Below, piece by piece: positions 3,509-31,635 of a stretch of DNA of 34,874 nt; position 1 is the stretch's first letter; the number at the start of each line of letters is the position of its first letter. Both the position numbers and the translations under genes were made by a program. The notes below the pieces were generated by a model, which searched no databases, was not told the origin of the DNA, and saw nothing but the letters and a program-made list of their open reading frames with translations. The DNA is from Sulfobacillus benefaciens (lineage in GTDB: Bacteria; Bacillota; Sulfobacillia; Sulfobacillales; Sulfobacillaceae), in NCBI GenBank assembly GCA_003023725.1, contig PXYT01000050.1:1-34874 (forward strand), written 5' to 3'.

Positions 3509-4107
3509 AGTTTGCCTCGCCCTAACAGCCATATTGCCAAAACAACCCCCAAAATAATCCAAATCCATTGACGCAGCCAAAGACGGGTACGGTGCGGCGA
3601 TACCTTCTCGCCTTGTTCTTGATTAGGTATTCTCGGAGTCTGCCTCGTTCTCAGTTGCCGTGTTTCAAGTCTTTGTGATCGTTTGAGATGGGCTACAGAG
3701 GGTGCTATACGACCCATACGACGGTACGCAATAGCGAGGTTGCGGTGGGCCGGCGGATACTCCGGATCAGTTTGTAGGGCCAACGTATAATGTTTTATCG
3801 CCTCGTCAAGTTGTCCCCGTTCCAAATAGATATTTCCTAGGTTCGTCAAAGATGGCACATGACGAGCCTCTTTGGACAAAGCGAAGAGAAAATATTTTTC
3901 TGCTTTACCCAGTTGACCTGTTTCGGCATACATCACCCCTAACTTGTTATACCCTTCCGGGCGGTCGGGATACTCGTCCATAATACGGTTGAAAATTTCT
4001 GTGGCCTCCTGACGGTTACCCGATTCCCATGCTTGCGTTCCTTCGGCTAACCATAACTGGCCCTCGTGATCCCAAGTTTTTGTGCCCGTACTGTTTGAGT
4101 TATTCAC
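3505..4107 (-). CDS. TPR-repeat protein with C-terminal membrane anchor
   Basis: A 200-residue protein. Residues about 18-150 form three to four tetratricopeptide repeats, with units such as PEGYNKLGVMYAETGQLGKAEKYF and PSLTNLGNIYLERGQLDEAI. TPRs act as protein-protein scaffolds. A basic linker is followed by one hydrophobic helix (WIWIILGVVLAIWLLG, about 182-197). The likely topology is therefore tail-anchored with TPRs in the cytosol. The GTG start at 4107 overlaps the stop of the YkvI-like gene. Its partner is unknown; the neighbours are membrane proteins. Confidence 0.85.
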   Translation of the reverse strand: MNNSNSTGTKTWDHEGQLWLAEGTQAWESGNRQEATEIFNRIMDEYPDRPEGYNKLGVMYAETGQLGKAEKYFLFALSKEARHVPSLTNLGNIYLERGQLDEAIKHYTLALQTDPEYPPAHRNLAIAYRRMGRIAPSVAHLKRSQRLETRQLRTRQTPRIPNQEQGEKVSPHRTRLWLRQWIWIILGVVLAIWLLGRGKL

Positions 4108-5093
4108 GGTCTTTCATTCTCTCCCCTTGCTGAAAGGAACAATGGTAACCACAATATGACGGCTAAGGATCCCATGACAGGATAAAGATGACCGACGAGT
4201 ACGCGGAAACTCCCCTGGGGGAATATCAGTGTCAGAAGCAACGCCGGCAACAAGGATTTGCCATAACGCTGGCGAAATACAAACACGATACTTAGGCCGG
4301 TAGTCAATAGAGCCAGCCATAGACTGGCCGCATAGAAAATGCCAAAGGACGAATGGATCCGAAAAGCTGCGACCACCATCGGTAAATTCGTGAGCGGCTC
4401 GAGACCCCTGAGTATCCGGTGTTCAGTGAACAACAACGTCCCAAGGATCATAGCGCCGATAACGGAAGCGATCCAGGCTTCCCTTTGTGAACGTGTTTGG
4501 TTTCCGAGGCCCAGTAAGACCATGGCAGCCGTAAATAAATTATACGACACATAAAGGATGGCTGACAAAAGCCAAAACCAAGAATGTATCTTTTCTTGGC
4601 TCTGTAAATGGATGGGATGGACCAAGAGACTCGTCATCACGATTATCGTAACGAGACAGGGCACAACCACCAGATTGACTCTGGTTATGCCGGTAGAACT
4701 TGAATAGCTTAGCAAGAGAGTCGTGCCCAGAGTAACGAATCGTCCAGCCCAGGAGGTTACCCCAAAACCGGCCAGGGTACTTGCTCCGCCGGAAGTGCAC
4801 ACGATGAGTCCTAGAATGAGAAACGCATCGGTCATTCCTTCAAAGATTTTCGCCATTTGAGAAGGGTAGGTGTGCGCAAGAAGTGTACCAAAATTGTCCA
4901 TTCCTTCTCGACCTCTGTCAAGGGCTACCCCTCCCGCCACTGCAAAAATTGCAGTGGCTACCAGAATCCCCCATATCCCGTTAGATCCAAAACGGCTAAA
5001 GAAATACCAAACTTCCTGACCGCTTGCAAAACCGGCGCCAATCACGGTCCCAACATAGGCCAGCGCGATGCTCAGGATTACGGGAATTCGCAT
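4104..5093 (-). CDS. YkvI-like APC-superfamily membrane transporter
   Basis: A 329-residue integral membrane protein with about ten hydrophobic helices. The N-terminal helix carries GAGFASGQE (19-27), which is characteristic of YkvI-type proteins of the amino acid/sodium symporter superfamily. The substrate is unknown. The ATG at 5093 follows repeated AGGAGG sequences, a very strong ribosome binding site. It is the first gene of the leftward cluster, divergent from yyaC across 74 bases that must hold both promoters. Confidence 0.8.
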   Translation of the reverse strand: MRIPVILSIALAYVGTVIGAGFASGQEVWYFFSRFGSNGIWGILVATAIFAVAGGVALDRGREGMDNFGTLLAHTYPSQMAKIFEGMTDAFLILGLIVCTSGGASTLAGFGVTSWAGRFVTLGTTLLLSYSSSTGITRVNLVVVPCLVTIIVMTSLLVHPIHLQSQEKIHSWFWLLSAILYVSYNLFTAAMVLLGLGNQTRSQREAWIASVIGAMILGTLLFTEHRILRGLEPLTNLPMVVAAFRIHSSFGIFYAASLWLALLTTGLSIVFVFRQRYGKSLLPALLLTLIFPQGSFRVLVGHLYPVMGSLAVILWLPLFLSARGENERP

Positions 5094-5167
5094 AGATTTC
5101 CTCCTCCTCCTAGTACATCTATGCCGTGAGTTGGATAAAATAGTCTTAGAGATGTGGGGGGAGCTGT

Positions 5168-5734
5168 GTGGCGGATATTGTAGGAGTCAATCGAACGTCA
5201 GGGGGTTACCAGGAAAAGAGGGTTCCCTACGATGCACCGGACGCGGTTCTGGAACTAAGCGCCGCTCTTAAATGGCTGTGGCGTCGTGAAGGTTTGCCGG
5301 AAACGGTGCTGTGTATCGGCACAGACAGGTCCACCGGAGATGCCTTGGGGCCGGTCGTAGGGAGCACTTTGAGTCAGCGGCGACTGGGTCCTATTCGGGT
5401 GTTGGGAACTTTGGAGGACCCGGTCCACGCAGCCAATCTTGGTGATTATATACGATCTTTTCCGGCCTTGCTAACAACTCGTGTATTCGCCATTGACGCT
5501 TCTTTAGGACGGTTGCCGGACGTAGGAATGGTAACCGCGGCACTTGGCCCGTTGAAGCCGGGTGCAGGGGTTAATAAACAGTTGCCGGCGTTGGGCCGTT
5601 ATCATTTGACCGGTACAGTCAATGTGGGAGGATTCATGGAGTTCTTTGTGTTACAGAACACACGTCTTAACGTGGTAATGAAAATGGCCTCCTGTATCTC
5701 GGAGGCCTTCATTCAAAGTTTGGGTCTAAGTTAA
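5168..5734 (+). CDS. yyaC: Spore protease YyaC-like protein
   Basis: A 188-residue protein of the YyaC family, related to the germination protease GPR and found in endospore formers near the origin. The signature CIGTDRSTGDALGP spans about 49-62. AIDASLGRLPDVG and the Gly-rich TGTVNVGGFMEFF follow. The GTG start has GGGGGGAG just upstream. It is the only rightward gene among leftward neighbours. Its stop TAA (5732-5734) overlaps the stop of the opposing DUF4446 gene, leaving no room for a separate terminator. Its presence supports a spore-forming host. Confidence 0.9.
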   Translation: MADIVGVNRTSGGYQEKRVPYDAPDAVLELSAALKWLWRREGLPETVLCIGTDRSTGDALGPVVGSTLSQRRLGPIRVLGTLEDPVHAANLGDYIRSFPALLTTRVFAIDASLGRLPDVGMVTAALGPLKPGAGVNKQLPALGRYHLTGTVNVGGFMEFFVLQNTRLNVVMKMASCISEAFIQSLGLS

Positions 5735-6249
5735 GAAGAGGTTTCCGCAGGGTGGGAATCCTTGGGTAGGCGCGTGGTGGCAGCCAAGTCAATGGCACTG
5801 CGTTCCTCCTGGCTTAGAGCGTAACGACTGTCCCGTTTTATTACGGGCTTGGCGTAGAGCCGAACTTCGTTGCGTCCCCAAAGACTTGTCATCACAACTC
5901 CGTCTCCGTATTCATTTAAAAGGGCGAGAGAAAAAGATAGGTCGGCGCCGGTATCGTCGAAGGGATTAAAGCGGACTAAACCGAATTTGCTTAATGTCTG
6001 TGCTTGTTTGCTTTCCAGCAGTGACAATCGCTGGTCAAACTCGGACGCAGCTTGTTTCGCGGTGGCTGCTTCGTCATATGTTTTGGCTAAAGATTCTTCG
6101 ATGTTTATTCCTCCCCCCCGGAGTACTCGTGTTATTCGCCGCTTGACTCGGGAAGCGGACGACCATGACAGAATGGCAACAATGAGAGAAACAAGCGCGA
6201 TGATAAGACTCGAAATCATAACTACGTTCACAGGCAAACCGGATAACAT
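5731..6249 (-). CDS. DUF4446 family membrane-anchored protein
   Basis: A 172-residue protein of unknown function, commonly encoded near parB in Firmicutes. The order is an N-terminal membrane helix, a coiled-coil linker (about residues 45-85), then the conserved FGLVRFNPFDDTGADLSFSLALLN and YAKPVIKRDSRYALSQEE core. The ATG at 6249 is preferred because GGAGG lies 7 bases before it. A GTG at 6267 that overlaps the upstream stop is the alternative and would add six residues. The convergent stop overlap with yyaC is unusual. Confidence 0.88.
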   Translation of the reverse strand: MLSGLPVNVVMISSLIIALVSLIVAILSWSSASRVKRRITRVLRGGGINIEESLAKTYDEAATAKQAASEFDQRLSLLESKQAQTLSKFGLVRFNPFDDTGADLSFSLALLNEYGDGVVMTSLWGRNEVRLYAKPVIKRDSRYALSQEERSAIDLAATTRLPKDSHPAETSS

Positions 6250-6263
6250 CAGGCTTCCTCCAT

Positions 6264-6965
6264 TCACAAGAAATATAAGCCGTGGGTTTTAAGCCAAAGC
6301 AAGAGTATGGGAAATATTAAGGCCGGCAACAAATTGCCTATTTTGATAGTGCCGTTCTCGAAAACAAAATTAATGCCGATTGCGGCTATCATCAGTCCGC
6401 CGACGGCGGTAATATCGGTCAAAAGAACGCCTCTTAGGACCGGCGCTAAATCTGAGGCCAGCAAGGAGAGACTTCCTTCGTACAAAGCGGTCACGACGGA
6501 TGCAGCGATGACGCCCCAACCAGCCACCGACGTCAGGATAATCGCGGTCGTTCCGTCTAAAACTGCTTTAGTGGCTAAAATGGTGAATCTTCCCGTCAAA
6601 CCATTTTGTAAAGACCCTAAAATGGACATGGCGCCGATATTAAAAATGAGTGTTCCTGCAATAAAACCCTTAGAAAACCCAGCCGTGCCCACACGGGATT
6701 CAGCCCATCGTCCGAATTGCTCAATTCGATCTTCGATATGAAGCCATGTTCCCAGTCCCAGCCCTAATTCGAGAGACAACAGGGTATTTATCGGATCGGG
6801 AAGGGGCCAAGCCATTTTGAATCCAATAAGTATAACCACTATGCCGATTACTCGCAGCGCCTGCTGACGAAAATCCGTACTAAACCGTCTGCCGCCGACT
6901 AATCCGATTAACGAACCCAACACAATTCCCAACCCATTGATCAACGCGCCCGCAATGTGCTGCAT
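6264..6965 (-). CDS. DUF554 family membrane protein (YqgA-like)
   Basis: A 233-residue membrane protein with about six to seven helices. It opens with GALINGLGIVLGSLIGLVGG and carries FNIGAMSILGSLQNGLTG, both typical of DUF554/YqgA, a putative transporter of unknown substrate. The ATG at 6965 directly follows one copy of a 16-bp palindrome (6966-6981). The arm of that palindrome also supplies the GAGG that could serve as ribosome binding site, so a bound protein could block translation start or transcription. It follows parB on the same strand. Confidence 0.88.
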   Translation of the reverse strand: MQHIAGALINGLGIVLGSLIGLVGGRRFSTDFRQQALRVIGIVVILIGFKMAWPLPDPINTLLSLELGLGLGTWLHIEDRIEQFGRWAESRVGTAGFSKGFIAGTLIFNIGAMSILGSLQNGLTGRFTILATKAVLDGTTAIILTSVAGWGVIAASVVTALYEGSLSLLASDLAPVLRGVLLTDITAVGGLMIAAIGINFVFENGTIKIGNLLPALIFPILLLWLKTHGLYFL

Positions 6966-6981
6966 TGTTCCTCAAGGAACA
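6966..6981. promoter_or_regulatory. parS-like palindrome, copy 1
   Basis: TGTTCCTCAAGGAACA has two 7-base inverted arms around CA. An identical copy lies 55 bp away at 7021-7036. The outer TGTTCC/GGAACA matches the outer bases of many bacterial parS sites (TGTTNCACGTGAAACA), but the centre is TCAA instead of ACGT. There is no T-tract, so it is not an obvious terminator. Identity as a ParB site is inferred from similarity and position next to parB. Confidence 0.5.
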
Positions 6982-7020
6982 CTCCTCTCACTTCTCCGGC
7001 GTCACACTTTCTCCAGCTAA

Positions 7021-7036
7021 TGTTCCTCAAGGAACA
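7021..7036. promoter_or_regulatory. parS-like palindrome, copy 2
   Basis: Same 16 bases as at 6966-6981. It begins directly after the parB stop codon (TAA at 7039-7037 on the minus strand). Two perfect copies in 71 bp with an unrelated 39-bp spacer suggest selected protein-binding sites. No further copy was noticed elsewhere in the window. Confidence 0.5.
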
Positions 7037-7960
7037 TTACACGACGAAGTCCCCCGAATCAGACCGAGAGTTTTCCTCCAAAATCTCCAGGATCCGTTCC
7101 AGTTCACTGACTGTGTGATACGGAATTTCGATCCGGCCTTTGTTTAAATCCCCTTTTAACCGCACCTTCGTTCCGAATCTCCGCCGCAACTGTTCCTCCG
7201 TGACCACTAAGTGCGTGTCGGGAGAAGAGTTGACCTTTACTTTGTTCGCTCTGGCCATTTCTGCTTCGGCCTGCGCCTCCAATTGCCTGAGGGTCCACTG
7301 CTCTTTCACCGCACGCGCCGCCAGTGTCATCCTTTTGGAGGGATCCACCGATAACAAAAACTTGGCATGAGCCACAGACAGCTTCTCCTCAGCCAACCAC
7401 TCCTGGATTTCCGCCTCCAGTGTAAGTAACCGCAAGTAGTTCGCCACGTGGGACCGTGATTTTCCCACTCTTTCTCCAATTTGTTCCTGCGTCCACCCTA
7501 GTTCGTCAGTCAACTTATGGTACGCCCATGATTCCTCAATTGGATCGAGATCGCTCCGCTGCAGATTTTCGACCAGCGCGACCTCCATCGCCTCCTGATC
7601 CGACATGTTTCGAATAATCACGGGAATACGGTCCATGGCAGCCCGTTTGGCTGCACGATACCGCCTCTCCCCGGCCACCAGTTCGTATCCGTCCCCAGAC
7701 GGCGTCACCCGTACCACAATCGGTTGAATGATCCCGTGAATACGAATGGATTCAGCCAACTCATTTAACTCATCCTCGGAAAAATGGCGCCGTGGTTGAA
7801 AAGGACTGGAACGTATGGCAGTAACGGGCACCTCATTCACCCGCGCTTTCTCGTCACTATGTATCCCTTCTGGGAAATTGTCCGAAACTGCCGCCTCTCT
7901 CCGCGGATTCTCCGGTATCAGTGACGATAATCCTCGTCCAAGACCACGGTTTTTACTCAT
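7037..7960 (-). CDS. parB: Chromosome partitioning protein ParB (Spo0J type)
   Basis: A 307-residue CTPase DNA clamp that loads at parS and with ParA segregates the origin. Residues 1-15 (SKNRGLGRGLSSLI) are the ParA-stimulating N-terminal peptide. The CTP-binding motif GERRYR is at 97-102, ENLQR at 131-135 and the helix-turn-helix at about 156-176 (TQEQIGERVGKSRSHVANYL). The C-terminal dimerisation domain has RFGTKVRLKGDLNKGRIEI. It overlaps parA by 8 bases, so the two are translationally coupled. A palindrome adjoins its stop codon. Confidence 0.96.
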   Translation of the reverse strand: MSKNRGLGRGLSSLIPENPRREAAVSDNFPEGIHSDEKARVNEVPVTAIRSSPFQPRRHFSEDELNELAESIRIHGIIQPIVVRVTPSGDGYELVAGERRYRAAKRAAMDRIPVIIRNMSDQEAMEVALVENLQRSDLDPIEESWAYHKLTDELGWTQEQIGERVGKSRSHVANYLRLLTLEAEIQEWLAEEKLSVAHAKFLLSVDPSKRMTLAARAVKEQWTLRQLEAQAEAEMARANKVKVNSSPDTHLVVTEEQLRRRFGTKVRLKGDLNKGRIEIPYHTVSELERILEILEENSRSDSGDFVV

Positions 7961-11205: not shown

Positions 11206-11249
11206 AAACCCACTTCTCCGCGGGGCGGAGACGTTCATTATTTATAGGA

Positions 11250-11276
11250 CAGTTATCCACAAATTGTGGATAACTG
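11250..11276. promoter_or_regulatory. Inverted pair of perfect DnaA boxes upstream of dnaA
   Basis: Two 13-base arms around one central base (11263) make a perfect palindrome. It contains TTATCCACA (11253-11261) and its inverse TGTGGATAA (11265-11273). This lies in the dnaA leader, where DnaA binding could repress dnaA and could form the upstream half of a bipartite origin. Confidence 0.8.
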
Positions 11277-11314
11277 TGTGGATTTTTTGTGTACATTATA
11301 GGGGGAGTTGTTTA

Positions 11315-25124: not shown

Positions 25125-25200
<76 letters not shown>

Positions 25201-25215
25201 CCAAAAAACCTGATA

Positions 25216-25238
25216 CCGCAAGCGATTGCGGGTTTTTT
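25216..25238 (+). terminator. Terminator after tRNA-Arg
   Basis: CCGCAA (25216-25221), loop GCGA, TTGCGG (25226-25231), then G and six T's. Compact and convincing. Confidence 0.9.
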
Positions 25239-25388
25239 ATTTTGCGCGTTGGCCCTCCATTTCCCCGATCATCCACAATTCCATCCACATGAGCGGGGAT
25301 AACGGCAGAAACGACAGACCATTCTTGAGGACGCGAGTTACGCGCCAGGAGTCACCTGAATTGTCCCGGTCTGCGCATAAAGGGGTTA

Positions 25389-25442: not shown

Positions 25443-26167
25443 TTAAGGGCCGGGCTTGCTCCATGCTTCGGCAGCCGCCACCAACCCTTGACGAGCCTGA
25501 AAGGGCAGCATCGGCCAGAGTTGAGCCAGGTGGTCCCACAAGATATCAGCCGGCTGAGATGATGTGGGCTCTACTGGTATGGACGTCAGGGCCTCCCATA
25601 ACGGTTGATACCATTCCGATCGGATCCAGCTCGTGTTGAATATAACGATTCGGCCGTAATCGATGCCGCCGCCGGGAGATGATGATAACGACCAGCCCGG
25701 ACATTTAACCATAATAGGCTGCCGAGAAGATCCGGAGACTTGTGGATGGTGCGAACCAAAATATCGGGCGTGGACCAGTGGAGGGCGTGGGCAGCAGCCT
25801 CGGCCCACACCGCCTCGTCGCCCGAAACCGAAACGGATAGGTGGACAAGGGTCCAATCCTGCTTGGCGGAGGAAGGCTCTCGCTCTCCGTCGGTAGGCCA
25901 GGGCGGTAAATCCGCCGTTAGAGCCGCAATCGGCAGAACGGGCACGGGGCAGGCGGCTAGCCAACTTGACAGGGTTTTTGGGGACGGTTGGCGGTCACCT
26001 CGTTCCAACCGGGCCACGTAACTCGCGTTTAAATTTAATTGACGCGATAATTCTTCTCGACCGAGACTGCGACCTAAACGCAATACAGACAAAATCGTGC
26101 CTAATGGCGCTGTGAAGGGGGCTGGGGCCCCCGAATTCCTTTTCTGATTGTCCTCTCGCTCTCGCAT
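25443..26167 (-). pseudogene. XRE-type regulator with apparent frameshift
   Basis: The N-terminal 193-codon frame (26167-25586) has an HTH at about 28-72 (SLGREELSRQLNLNASYVARLERG). It then continues in coding-like sequence to LLGSLLWLNVRAG. From there its residues look random, while the overlapping frame (stop at 25443) becomes protein-like: GIDYGRIVIFNTSWIRSEW, then ILWDHLAQLWPMLPFQARQGL. A -1 shift near 25665-25685 would join them into about 240 residues. It may be a broken repressor, a sequencing error, or a programmed shift; no classic slippery heptamer is seen. AAAGGAG lies 9 bases before the ATG. It is divergent from the xis-like gene. Confidence 0.65.
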
Positions 26168-26302: not shown

Positions 26303-26527
26303 ATGACGACAGCAGACAGGCTTGGGGAGACGATTACGGACATTACGGGCAGCCCTCATCCGGCACTACTCACTGTGACCCAATTCGCGAAAGTACTAGG
26401 CATATCCGGCATTACAGTACGGCGGATGCTAGAGCGGGGTGACATAACAGAAGTCAAAATTCCGGGCACGATGGTCAAGCGCATCCCAATCAGCGAAGTG
26501 TACCGGATTTTGGGTGGAGACGACTAG
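26303..26527 (+). CDS. Excisionase/AlpA-like helix-turn-helix protein
   Basis: A 74-residue small DNA-binding protein. LLTVTQFAKVLGISGITVRRMLERGDI (about 25-51) is the MerR-like winged helix of the excisionase (HTH_17) family, followed by KIPGTMVKRIPISEVYRIL. Such proteins act as excisionases or, like AlpA, as activators in satellites and prophages. GGGAGGTG lies about 10 bases before the ATG. It starts a rightward unit with the helicase gene and faces a regulator across an operator-like region. No integrase partner is in the window. Confidence 0.8.
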   Translation: MTTADRLGETITDITGSPHPALLTVTQFAKVLGISGITVRRMLERGDITEVKIPGTMVKRIPISEVYRILGGDD

Positions 26528-26685: not shown

Positions 26686-28278
26686 ATGAGCGACATTCCA
26701 GAAAAAAACACCCCCGTGCAAGCGGAGGCGGAAGTGGGTCAGAATAGTAATTCAACTATTGATATTACAGCACACTTACGACAAAAACGCAAGCCGGCGG
26801 AGGCGGCAGAACCTTCCATGTGGACAGACGATTGGACTGCGTGGTTTGTTCGGAAGTGGTTCGCTACACTAACTCGGGCGGTGGGTGATAAAAAACTTGG
26901 TGCCAGCGACAGCACGCTTTGGGCTGGCGTGCTCTATGAAGAACTAACGTTGGGGTGGTACCATGATGATCTCTATGGTTTGCGTTCTCGCAGTGATCCG
27001 TTATTTCAGCCCGTTAAAACGGATGTGGAGCGGTTGATTCAATCGATAGCCAACGAGCTCCGTAATCACGGTGTGACTGTCGAAAAATCCGTGACTCGCG
27101 TAGGCGACGTGATGACGGCATTCCGATATGTCTTGCCTCGGCCCAATGATGGGGATTGGATCAATTGGGACCGCGAGCACTGGAATCGGCATCAAGCGAT
27201 TGTGTTTACCAACGGGATATTGGATCTGGAAACGTTGGTGCTTCGCCCGCTGACCGCAGACGACCGCGCAACCTGGCGGATCCCCTACCGCTGGATGGGT
27301 GACCAACCCTTGCCCCCGAAATCGATCAGGTTTTGGTTGACACACTTTCAAAACTTGTTCGGGAAAGACAAGGAAGCCCGGCCAAAAACGCAAGCAGTAC
27401 TGGTGCGGTCGGCGGTGGCTTTAACCCCTTGGATTCGTGGGGCGCAGTGGCAGAAAGCTCTGCTGCTGATCGGCTCGGGGCAAAACGGGAAGGGTACCTG
27501 GATCCGGCTTTGGATGCACATCCTGGGACCCCTGCTGCAATCGGTATCTCTATCGGGATACGATGACCATAACCGATTCGGGCTCTCCAATTTGCGGCCA
27601 GACACCCTTGTGGTGGTGAGCCCTGATATGGACGAAAATGTAAAACTTCGGGGCACGGAACGGTTCAAAAAGCTCACGGGGGATGATGCCATCGATTGGG
27701 AACGCAAAAATCGCGACATCATCACCACGCAGTTTCAGGCGAGGGTCTGGATGGCCGGGCCGGTGGTGCCCAAAGTCGCCGACCGCAGTCAGGGAATGTT
27801 CCGTCGACTCAGTGATACGATCATTATGTTTGATCAGAAACAACCTGAGAACGCAGGGTATGAGGATCAGATGAAAACCACGGACAACATCGAAACGTTG
27901 CTGGTGATTGCCGTCACGGCGTTGCACCGGGTAATCACCGGACAGCAGGACATGCCCGTTCCGGCATCGGCCGGCGAGGCATTACAGGAATATCGCCGCC
28001 AGATCGATCTGTGGGAGCAGTGGTTCGACCCAGACGATGGATGGCTAGAGTTGGATCCGAACGGATGGGTCGCAACCCCCCGGCTCTACCAAGTGTACCA
28101 GCACTGGTACCAGAACTGGACCGGAAAGAAGTATCCCGAGTACATGTCGCGCACAACATTCGGGAAAAAATTCACGGAACATCTCGGTCCCAGGGTGGGC
28201 CGTGGAACCAGCAGCACGAAAGGCTACGCGGGAGTTGCCGTCAAATTCGAATGGGATCGGATGTTTGATGAAGGCTGA
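26686..28278 (+). CDS. Phage/plasmid D5-type SF3 helicase (replication protein)
   Basis: A 530-residue replication protein. The middle (about 100-240) resembles the D5_N domain. The SF3 helicase has Walker A GSGQNGKGT (about 262-270), Walker B LVVVSPDMDEN and the motif RFKKLTGDDAIDWERKN. The usual Asn of motif C before the proline appears replaced: MAGPVVPKVAD, then MFRRLSDTIIMF with the arginine finger region. No primase catalytic motif is evident at the N-terminus, so it may need another primase. AGGAGG precedes the ATG. The order HTH - helicase - repeat region resembles satellite or plasmid replication modules. Confidence 0.85.
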   Translation: MSDIPEKNTPVQAEAEVGQNSNSTIDITAHLRQKRKPAEAAEPSMWTDDWTAWFVRKWFATLTRAVGDKKLGASDSTLWAGVLYEELTLGWYHDDLYGLRSRSDPLFQPVKTDVERLIQSIANELRNHGVTVEKSVTRVGDVMTAFRYVLPRPNDGDWINWDREHWNRHQAIVFTNGILDLETLVLRPLTADDRATWRIPYRWMGDQPLPPKSIRFWLTHFQNLFGKDKEARPKTQAVLVRSAVALTPWIRGAQWQKALLLIGSGQNGKGTWIRLWMHILGPLLQSVSLSGYDDHNRFGLSNLRPDTLVVVSPDMDENVKLRGTERFKKLTGDDAIDWERKNRDIITTQFQARVWMAGPVVPKVADRSQGMFRRLSDTIIMFDQKQPENAGYEDQMKTTDNIETLLVIAVTALHRVITGQQDMPVPASAGEALQEYRRQIDLWEQWFDPDDGWLELDPNGWVATPRLYQVYQHWYQNWTGKKYPEYMSRTTFGKKFTEHLGPRVGRGTSSTKGYAGVAVKFEWDRMFDEG

Positions 28279-28282
28279 TATG

Positions 28283-28310
28283 CCGGGAGCTATCTAGCTC
28301 CCGGTTAATT
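28283..28310 (+). terminator. Terminator after the helicase gene
   Basis: CCGGGAGCTA (28283-28292), loop TC, TAGCTCCCGG (28295-28304), then TTAATTTTTG. A perfect 10-bp stem starting 5 bases after the stop codon. Confidence 0.85.
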
Positions 28311-28329
28311 TTTGTACGGGCACGGATTG

Positions 28330-28706
28330 CCGGTCGGGTTGCGGACGGTTCCGGACAGGAGTGGAAAGCCGGAAACCCGCATGGCTGTAAGGCTCGGGTC
28401 AGCAGGTCAGTAAAAACGCTTTTCTCCGTAATGTTTTGCGAGATTGCCCCACACGATGACGCGTGGGAATTGTCCGATGATTGTGGGATGCGTGATCATG
28501 GGAAGGAGGGGCGGCCCAGAAAGACCCTCTTAGGGGAAGAATATAAATTTAAATTGTCGCAATTATCGTCATGTGGGGTGAATTACTAAAAACTTTAGCA
28601 GAAAAGGGAAAATACTGACCTGCTGACCCGAGCCCTTACACAGAGCCACTTTCGGACGATCATAACTGACCCGGTACCTGTCCGGAACCGTCCGCAACCC
28701 GACCGG
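28330..28706. repeat. Long interrupted inverted repeat, candidate replication origin
   Basis: Outer arms of 30 bp are perfectly inverted (28330-28359 and 28677-28706; they begin CCGGTCGGG). Inner arms of about 24 bp (28387-28410 and 28615-28639) are inverted with one extra base; the core reads CTCGGGTCAGCAGGTCAG. The segments between outer and inner arms differ (27 and 37 bp). The 204-bp centre holds GC-rich small repeats near 28450-28500 and an AT-rich stretch near 28541-28570. It lies directly after the SF3 helicase gene, where origins of such elements often lie. Function is inferred. Confidence 0.75.
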
Positions 28707-29877
28707 TAAGAGACGTTTGAGGGGTCGAAGACGGGTGTCAAGCGCGCAAAGAAGACAAATCACGGCGTGGGTCCGCGATCTCTGAGTGCATAACATTTCC
28801 GAATTTAAGAATAATAGTGCGAATCAGGAGGCCGAAGCGTTGTTTCCGGGTCTATTCCATGCGGACTGACTCATGCAGAACCCCATGACTTGGTCTCACC
28901 CGTCACACCTGTGGTAAAGAGAAGAATTCTGTACAATGAGACATAACCTTCAGCGCATTTTTCTTATTCCCCTGTTGGCGTCTTGTCGTAGCGATTGCCT
29001 GATATTGTGTCCGTGAGCTCGCTTTACTTCAAGACTTCCCAGGTTCACTCGATGTTTGCCATCACTGCCAGGGAGCCTCCCGCTATATATTGAATACTGG
29101 TGCCCAGCCCGGGGCTCAAGGAGTAAGTTTCTCGAGTTGACGCAAGCACTCCGCTGAGCCTATTCCTATATACATGGCGGAATTGCTTCACTGGCTGGGC
29201 GCGAGGATTTTGGACACCGGCAGCAACGGTCCACCGTTTCCAAACCTATGAGGGATGGTTAACGCATCCATCGGACAGGCTGTCGACCGTCGTGAGACGG
29301 AAAAAGGTCACCGCCGGCTTAGGCCATCTCAAATTTGTGGGAGAAGGCATTGTAACATCTCCTATTTGCATTAGAATTATCCTAAGTCCATAACCAAAGA
29401 CACACCATAGAGAGGCAAGAAGTGAACAGCCCGTCATTTTTGGACGGCGGGAAATATTCCTGGTCTCAGGTGGCGGATTTTTATTTTGATACTGTGTCGA
29501 GTGAACAACGCCTCATACATGGACACCATTTGACGTAAACACCCTGTACACTCGGGGTGATAGGCTAACTTAATCACTCGGCTTGAAACTGTTGAAAAGC
29601 GAGTCAAAGAGACCGGGGCAACGATTCAACCATTTATCCCAATGGGGAGGGAGCCATTGTTCTCGTCAGGATCGACTCTTGATGCCATTGATTGTTGCCG
29701 ATAACTTTTGGACAACCCTGCTCGACTGCTTTACCGCATAGGGCGAGCAGGTTGCCAAGAAGGGAGGGGATTGGTGGTTTGTTAAGCGTGTAGTCCTCTC
29801 GTGTGAAGAGGAGTTCGAAAATTTTTCGATCAAAGGGAATCATTATCACGAATTTGCTATATAATAGGGGTAAAAGT
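28707..29877. other. About 1.2 kb with no convincing gene; coding scraps
   Basis: No intact gene is supported. Short coding-like pieces on the plus strand are: 29174-29251 (MAELLHWLGARILDTGSNG...), 29422-29538 (GTG start, NSPSFLDGGKYSWSQVADF, with AGAGG upstream), and an open stretch at about 29566-29703 (RLETVEKRVKETGATIQPF). They lie in different frames and look like remains of decayed genes; no family is recognised. The end holds the toxin promoter, with a TATAAT at 29860-29865 and a poor -35. Confidence 0.5.
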
Positions 29878-30243
29878 ATGAGGCGGGCAGCTACGCAATT
29901 CTTCGTGTTGGAGGCTTTTAAAAAAGCGACGCGGAAGCTAAAGCCTCCAGGACAAGAAAAGGTCTTGATGTCTGTGAGGCAATTTCAAGAGGAATGGAAA
30001 CAGAGCGAGTACGATGCGGACCTTTCGCCAGGGTATGATCTTCAACCTCTAGAGCACCGAGCGGGACAATATCGCGTGGTTGAGATACGCGCAGGGCGTG
30101 ATTGGCGGGTGGCCCTGATGATTTGGAATGATGTCTCTCAAGCATATTGGCTTCACACTTGGCGAAAGAGTGGCCGGAGAAATCCCCAAGACTATGATAC
30201 GGCCAGAGAACGAGCGAAAAGGCTTTGGCAACGGAAGGGGTAG
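29878..30243 (+). CDS. RelE/HigB-superfamily toxin
   Basis: A 121-residue basic protein. The C-terminal half carries the HigB/Gp49-like pattern: YRVVEIRAGRDWRVALMIW, then YWLHTWRKSGRRNPQDYDTARERAKRLW. Toxins of this type cleave mRNA on ribosomes. The ATG at 29878 is chosen because AGGGGT and a TATAAT lie just upstream; the frame stays open to 29803. It is followed 5 bases later by an XRE protein, the toxin-first order of higBA. Length is slightly above the usual 90-115. Confidence 0.82.
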   Translation: MRRAATQFFVLEAFKKATRKLKPPGQEKVLMSVRQFQEEWKQSEYDADLSPGYDLQPLEHRAGQYRVVEIRAGRDWRVALMIWNDVSQAYWLHTWRKSGRRNPQDYDTARERAKRLWQRKG

Positions 30244-30248
30244 AAACG

Positions 30249-30683
30249 ATGGACGACGACATTCGTGTGAGTAGCCAATCGGTGGAAGATTTGTTACGCG
30301 ATACGTTAATGCATCACGAAGAGACTTGGCCGGATGCCTTAAAGGATCAATTTCTGATGGATACCATGATTGAACTTTTTAAGGCTCGGCGACGAGCAGG
30401 ATGGACGCAGGATCAAGTAGCCCAAGCTATAGGGACCACGCAATCTGCCATAGCACGATGGGAAAAGGATTTTGAGGGGAAAATTTCATTACACCGTCTC
30501 GCGGATTTTGCTTTGGCGTGCGGAATGGTCCCGAAGATACAGTTTGAGAGTATCGATGTGGCTAAACAGCGGATGGCGTTTTTTGACAATGTCTCGACAG
30601 ACCCTAACGTGGTAAATTTTCCAGGTCACGATTCATCGACGACCGTTTCGAACAATTTTGCTAACGTCAACTTGGCTGGATGA
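30249..30683 (+). CDS. XRE-family antitoxin with C-terminal tail
   Basis: A 144-residue HTH protein. Residues about 40-90 hold the XRE domain (RRRAGWTQDQVAQAIGTTQSAIARWEKD) after an N-terminal helical part. Beyond the HTH a 44-residue tail (101-144) contains MAFFDNVSTDPNVVNFPGH and ends in a low-complexity Asn/Val stretch. HigA-type antitoxins neutralise the toxin and repress the operon. GGAAGGGG precedes the ATG at 30249. The third gene begins 3 bases after its stop. The tail is longer than in minimal HigA proteins. Confidence 0.85.
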   Translation: MDDDIRVSSQSVEDLLRDTLMHHEETWPDALKDQFLMDTMIELFKARRRAGWTQDQVAQAIGTTQSAIARWEKDFEGKISLHRLADFALACGMVPKIQFESIDVAKQRMAFFDNVSTDPNVVNFPGHDSSTTVSNNFANVNLAG

Positions 30684-31509: not shown

Positions 31510-31635
31510 AACCATGCTAACCATGCGTAGTAGTACTAAGTATCGCTACAGCCGTTACGGGGTAACGGTTTCAGCCCGCATGGTTTTGTCGAAACATAAC
31601 CATGCAAACGGCGATCATAACCATGCTAACCATGC
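31510..31635. repeat. Cluster of AACCATGC repeats (iteron- or operator-like)
   Basis: AACCATGC occurs at 31510-31517, 31519-31526, 31598-31605, 31619-31626 and 31628-31635, and inverted at 31578-31585. Two pairs have a 9-bp period; CATAACCATGC repeats at 21 bp. Between them CCGTTAC (31552-31558) and GTAACGG (31562-31568) form a hairpin. Regular phasing suggests protein binding, e.g. a plasmid iteron array or operator. Nothing else in 31410-31864 looks like a gene. Confidence 0.7.

Follow-up and report, generated by a model that had tools for sequence, protein, structure and literature searches.

The interrupted inverted repeat that follows an SF3 (D5/P4-type) helicase gene in Sulfobacillus benefaciens is very probably (about 0.85) the replication origin of an element integrated at a tRNA-Arg gene, where the helicase encoded upstream would bind on two mirror-image arrays. 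The window, i.e., the whole stretch of 34,874 nts that was analysed, carries the gene and the repeat side by side, the gene ending at 28278 and the repeat starting at 28327. The arms of the repeat are two mirror-image iteron arrays, the position behind the helicase gene is conserved in relatives, and the same anatomy is present in annotated origins of phages. The features of the region are listed below; C151 is a contig of the same genome with a homologous copy of the repeat, and C33 is a contig of a related genome with an orthologous helicase.

25125 to 25200, plus strand: tRNA-Arg(acg), integration site of the element (ARAGORN)
25201 to 25246, plus strand: left end of the element with its own terminator, recurring elsewhere in the genus
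25586 to 26167, minus strand: HTH repressor-like gene (Pfam HTH_3)
26303 to 26527, plus strand: small HTH_17 or excisionase-like gene (Pfam HTH_17 and PHROG excisionase, both weak)
26686 to 28278, plus strand: SF3 (D5/P4 type) helicase of 530 aa, presumed initiator (Pfam, PHROG, NCBIfam and PDB matches)
28283 to 28316, plus strand: intrinsic terminator of the helicase gene, CCGGGAGCTATCTAGCTCCCGG followed by a T-rich stretch (sequence and fold)
28327 to 28359, plus strand: outer left arm, an iteron array with GGWCRG at 28332, 28343 and 28353
28372 to 28391, plus strand: conserved 20-bp box GAAACCCGCATGGCTGTAAG between the outer and inner left arrays, identical in C151
28391 to 28412, plus strand: inner left arm, iterons at 28397 and 28405
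28531 to 28600, no strand: AT-rich stretch (69% AT), presumed unwinding element
28613 to 28634, minus strand: inner right arm, minus-strand iterons at 28621 and 28629
28630 to 28652, minus strand: degenerate counterpart of the box, AAAGTGGCTCTGTGTAAGGGCTC on the minus strand, conserved in C151 and on the opposite strand in C33
28672 to 28709, minus strand: outer right arm, minus-strand iterons at 28672, 28684, 28694 and 28705
28692 to 28824, no strand: flank kept in the homologous C151 copy (68% identity)

The protein encoded upstream of the repeat matches DUF5906 (4.5e-13) and D5_N (6.7e-4) in Pfam and phage primase families among the PHROGs (3.6e-35), while its score against TIGR01613 (104.6 bits) falls just under the cutoff of 108.7. 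Its sole relative in the PDB is the DNA primase 7ola (7e-13). At the C-terminus, the similarity to the winged-helix family Pox_D5 is sub-threshold, at 0.1 in the window protein and 0.013 in the C33 orthologue, and the AlphaFold model is poor (pLDDT 39), with a strand-helix-helix-strand arrangement of low confidence at this end.

Genome comparison indicates that the helicase gene belongs to a mobile element inserted at the 3′ end of the tRNA-Arg. In five congeneric genomes, the match to the serS-tRNA block ends within about 20 bp of position 25200, and the two of the five that were read past the tRNA carry different, unrelated DNA there. In addition, copies of the left-end stretch (25201 to 25246) follow other tRNA-like sites on numerous contigs from the genus, and one lies at C151:91-123 in the same genome, just behind a tRNA-Gln. 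The contig breaks off within the element; no integrase was recognised in the window, and no phage structural genes were recognised among the element genes scanned. On contig C130 of the same genome (L202), partial copies of the tRNA-Arg 3′ end lie at 2670-2699 (30 bp, 96.7%) and 5621-5662 (42 bp, 95%); these are possibly the right attachment sites of the window element or of stacked elements. Further along the element, two small overlapping genes at 29803-30683, the second with HTH_3, resemble a toxin-antitoxin pair (the toxin being assigned by eye), an exact 17-bp direct repeat, AACCATGCTAACCATGC, occupies 31510-31526 and 31619-31635, and the ORF cut off by the contig end (34557-34874) has a 48% identical homologue downstream of the C33 helicase, suggesting a conserved gene of the element family. 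Because dnaA and gyrBA are on the same contig, the chromosomal origin is only about 17 kb from the candidate origin of the element. A palindrome at 11249-11277, in which perfect DnaA boxes oppose each other where the listed dnaA ORF begins, is probably part of the chromosomal origin region, and no perfect DnaA box is present in the candidate origin of the element.

Between the end of the helicase gene and position 28709, the sequence runs through the terminator hairpin, a 33-nt arm, a spacer, a 22-nt arm, about 200 nts of unrelated sequence and the same arms inverted. The outer arms (28327-28359 and 28677-28709) are 97% complementary over 33 nts with 317 nts in between. The inner core (28391-28412 and 28613-28634) is perfect over 22 nts and is contained in a longer, imperfect pair (28391-28459 and 28566-28634; 69 nts, 72%). 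As a single strand, the repeat region folds with z = -12.4 on the plus and -11.9 on the minus strand, none of 100 dinucleotide shuffles being as good. The nested arms reported by the initial annotation are thus real, and of the AT-rich centre that it described, the AT-richness stands (69% at 28531-28600 vs 45% in the helicase gene), while the stretch is modest and lies to the right of the exact centre.

Within the repeat, GGWCRG occurs five times on the plus strand in the left half and six times on the minus strand in the right half, never in the wrong orientation, and it is spaced by 8-12 bp inside the clusters. The motif occurs 74 times in the whole 34.9-kb window, hence fewer than one occurrence is expected in 383 bp. 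Since GGWCRG was picked after the arms had been viewed, an unsupervised count of 6-mers shared by the two halves is the fairer test: the left half (plus strand) and the right half (minus strand) have 51 in common, whereas 300 shuffles gave 7.7 on average and never more than 20.

The arrangement was sought beside orthologous helicases, as the initial annotation had proposed, and both relatives with a whole helicase keep it. Among 34 genomes of the family, the orthologue is present in three others, one of which (C115) carries a truncated copy that is uninformative on repeat retention. The helicase of C33 (genome G022; 66% identity) is followed by a terminator and by opposed CAGACAGA arrays around an AT-rich centre. 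In contig C85 (genome G021; 68%), an IS-type insertion, as read by eye from the ORFs, separates the gene from a remnant of the repeat in which the left array is kept. These are the only two known orthologues with intact 3′ ends, one having an intact repeat with different iterons and the other a remnant only, which weighs against reading the repeat as an origin, as does the modest and off-centre AT-rich stretch.

Inverted arrays directly 3′ of D5/P4-type or DUF927 helicases are found in many phages of Firmicutes. In phiadh, A2 and Sfi21, the region behind the primase gene is annotated as rep_origin in the sequence records, and it is this annotation that defines their origin status here. The protein of the IMG/VR contig L101, used as a query, led to the Lactobacillus phage phiadh, in which rep_origin is annotated at the equivalent place and opposed arrays are present, while relatives of the IMG/VR contig L103 led to the Thermoanaerobacterium phage THSA-485A, with arrays laid out alike. 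The layout is also seen in R9.2, Epona, L101 and L103. Compared with shuffles, the fold z 3′ of the helicase gene is negative in 16 of 16 phages (-2.1 to -9.5). The two halves of the phiadh region share 30 6-mers, which is not above the shuffle maximum of 32, and its opposed arrays rest on longer inverted pairs. A panel of actinophage D5 primases was dropped from the comparison because there is no sizeable gap behind the gene, leaving nothing to compare. Together with the mirror-image GGWCRG arrays and the two orthologous helicases, the annotated phage origins favour the proposal, already made in the initial annotation, of a candidate origin with two oppositely oriented initiator sites.

A second recurrent component is the 20-bp box. 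It is found at the equivalent position in L101 and L103 with the same motif, in phiadh as CCCTTGTGGCTGTAAG and in C33 as CCCTTGCGGTAGTAAG; the C33 box, GAAACCCTTGCGGTAGTAAG, lies on the opposite strand relative to the gene. An exact search for AAACCCGCATGGCTGTAAG in IMG/VR retrieved three contigs; in two of them, an inverted repeat immediately follows a helicase gene and each of its halves contains the box. The protein before the box is a D5 helicase in L101 and a CHC2/DUF927/Cch-type protein in L103. Other exact 17-19-mer matches in IMG/VR (L102, L124, L125 and L126) were rejected, being inside genes or without an inverted repeat, and so were the box-like matches L104, L106 and L108, which are tRNA terminators. 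Scans for two boxes in genome and viral contigs returned mainly direct repeats in coding or satellite DNA, L101 being the only real case. One further match, in L014 (G032:C199, 2725-2749), agrees with the box in 24 of 25 bases, on a 3.8-kb contig that has few ORFs and lacks a helicase.

A profile of the box was scored on 16 phage regions left out of profile building, a weak out-of-sample test since some of them had been viewed by eye before scoring. None of 200 shuffles reaches the box score in A2, EG37K, Rg507T2 and THSA-485A (Epona, 2/200). The forms seen are CCCTTGTGGCTGTGAG and CCCTTGTGGCTGTAAG in phiadh and TCCTTGTGAGAGTAAG in A2, and the same scan of phage regions detected no box in several streptococcal phages, Sfi21 and PT1028. 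Searches by DNA similarity for the repeat or the box in the GenBank phage and plasmid collections gave nothing or chance matches in coding DNA, and box patterns with one mismatch matched across the class at the control rate. The box was not found in the literature searched, which proves little.

The homologous copy on C151 (L005:4364-4739) is 73% identical to the window repeat and also lies at a tRNA end; a nearly identical version of it is carried by genome G025. Upstream of it are an AAA_25 helicase and a 323-aa protein without a known family, so that the best match to the repeat is preceded by replication proteins of another type, which weighs against the origin reading. In the same locus, large intergenic segments are repeated between small genes (3869-7553) with up to 95% identity. 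The box, the flanks and much of the backbone are kept between the two copies and the arm sequences differ. Of the 151 comparable pairs of the window repeat, 120 form in C151, vs 54-76 when the partners are slid, and nine two-sided changes in the arms keep pairing. The initial annotation had described spacers that diverged while the arms did not. Within the window copy the spacers do differ; compared with C151, however, no stretch is more strictly conserved than the left spacer (28369-28391, CCGGAAACCCGCATGGCTGTAAG), and it is the arms that change, in step with each other. Such a concerted change is as expected if the iterons follow their initiator. An RNA helix would yield the same pattern of paired changes, hence the C151 comparison alone is not decisive.

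A structured RNA, regulatory or antisense, could therefore be transcribed from the repeat, with the nine paired changes preserving its helix, and the very stable fold on both strands agrees with this. However, a changed binding protein explains the concerted change of the arms equally well, the repeat is located behind the terminator of the helicase gene, and Rfam holds no match to any described RNA family for the repeat region. Furthermore, the orientation of the box relative to the gene is not fixed, as C33 has it on the opposite strand, and the arms consist of arrayed short direct repeats with a unit that differs from one element to another, in a kind of region that is annotated as an origin in phages. 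An RNA is thus improbable. The long imperfect hairpin and its conserved unpaired-strand motifs could also suggest a single-strand origin, an ssDNA promoter or a transfer origin that works in its folded, single-stranded form; hairpins are likewise known for ssi elements of the RSF1010 type and for sso elements of ICEs (for sso, PMC4595007). Among the element genes scanned for families, none was recognised as encoding a relaxase or rolling-circle initiator, and mirror-image iterons at near-helical spacing point to binding of double-stranded DNA, which leaves such a function a slim chance.

Regulators, too, make use of opposed arrays of short sites, and the element has several HTH genes, hence the repeat might serve to bind a regulator or a partition protein instead of being an origin. 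The placement right behind the helicase gene, which recurs in relatives and in phages whose origins are annotated, the presence of an AT-rich stretch and the precedents of SaPI and SCCmec (PMC7581432) make this very improbable. The 33-bp terminal inverted repeats could, in turn, be those of a transposon end or a MITE, the case that the initial annotation had named as fatal to its proposal. The genome holds only one other homologous locus, diverged and again beside a replication module, there are no dispersed copies, and the arms are iteron arrays rather than simple ends. The likelihood of a mobile repeat is accordingly close to nil.

If the repeat is an origin, the SF3 helicase encoded immediately upstream would bind the GGWCRG iterons, the C-terminal domain being the likeliest point of contact, and one oligomer would assemble on each of the mirror-image arrays, giving two in all. 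The two assemblies would face each other over the AT-rich stretch, melt it and depart in opposite directions, and replication would proceed once a primase of the host or of the element has laid down primers. The conserved box may be an additional element of the origin, perhaps the site of a host or priming factor. More tentatively, and at somewhat less than even odds, the box CCCKYRNGGCTGTAAG could be a functional element, not described before, that is widespread among SF3-type origins in phages and islands of Firmicutes and serves for docking or priming independently of the initiator, and such origins could be retuned to a new initiator by concerted iteron change while the box and the backbone stay.

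For a family of tRNA-integrated elements that has been little studied, this analysis supplies a candidate initiator and a candidate origin with map positions. The window and C151 copies offer a natural comparison, in which one origin backbone is combined with different iteron arrays and different replication proteins. The kind of origin is already known; the shared box and the concerted iteron change are the new points, and with the box it can be tested concretely whether phage origins of the SF3 type depend on a shared second factor in addition to the initiator.

The comparisons support the view that the candidate origin is a further example of a layout known from bacterial viruses and islands. 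The origins of phiadh and A2 (Lactobacillus) and Sfi21 (Streptococcus) likewise lie directly 3′ of a D5-type helicase/primase gene and consist of inverted arrays of short repeats with an AT-rich centre. The box is common to the window repeat, phiadh and A2, whereas Sfi21 has no matching box, and the window repeat differs from all three in its iteron sequences, its higher GC content and its location on a tRNA-integrated element. For pRN1, a stem-loop following the replication gene has been found essential, with similar stem-loops pointed out in phages (PMC4234260). The pRN1-family plasmids and phage BIP-1 thus resemble the window in having a large stem-loop behind an SF3 helicase/primase gene (PMC4234260), with the difference that the stem-loop of pRN1 is 100 bp, that iterons are not its described feature and that its host is archaeal. 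The SaPI origins and the putative origin at SCCmec cch2, compared by description, share iterons directly downstream of the gene of a self-loading initiator helicase. SaPI Rep binds such iterons directly downstream of its own gene via its C-terminal domain, and the D5_N helicase Cch2 of SCCmec was shown to bind repeats downstream of its own gene likewise in vitro, where only the direct repeats are needed and the inverted repeats are dispensable; SaPI5 Rep and Cch2 both belong to the D5/Primase_Cterm family (PMC7581432).
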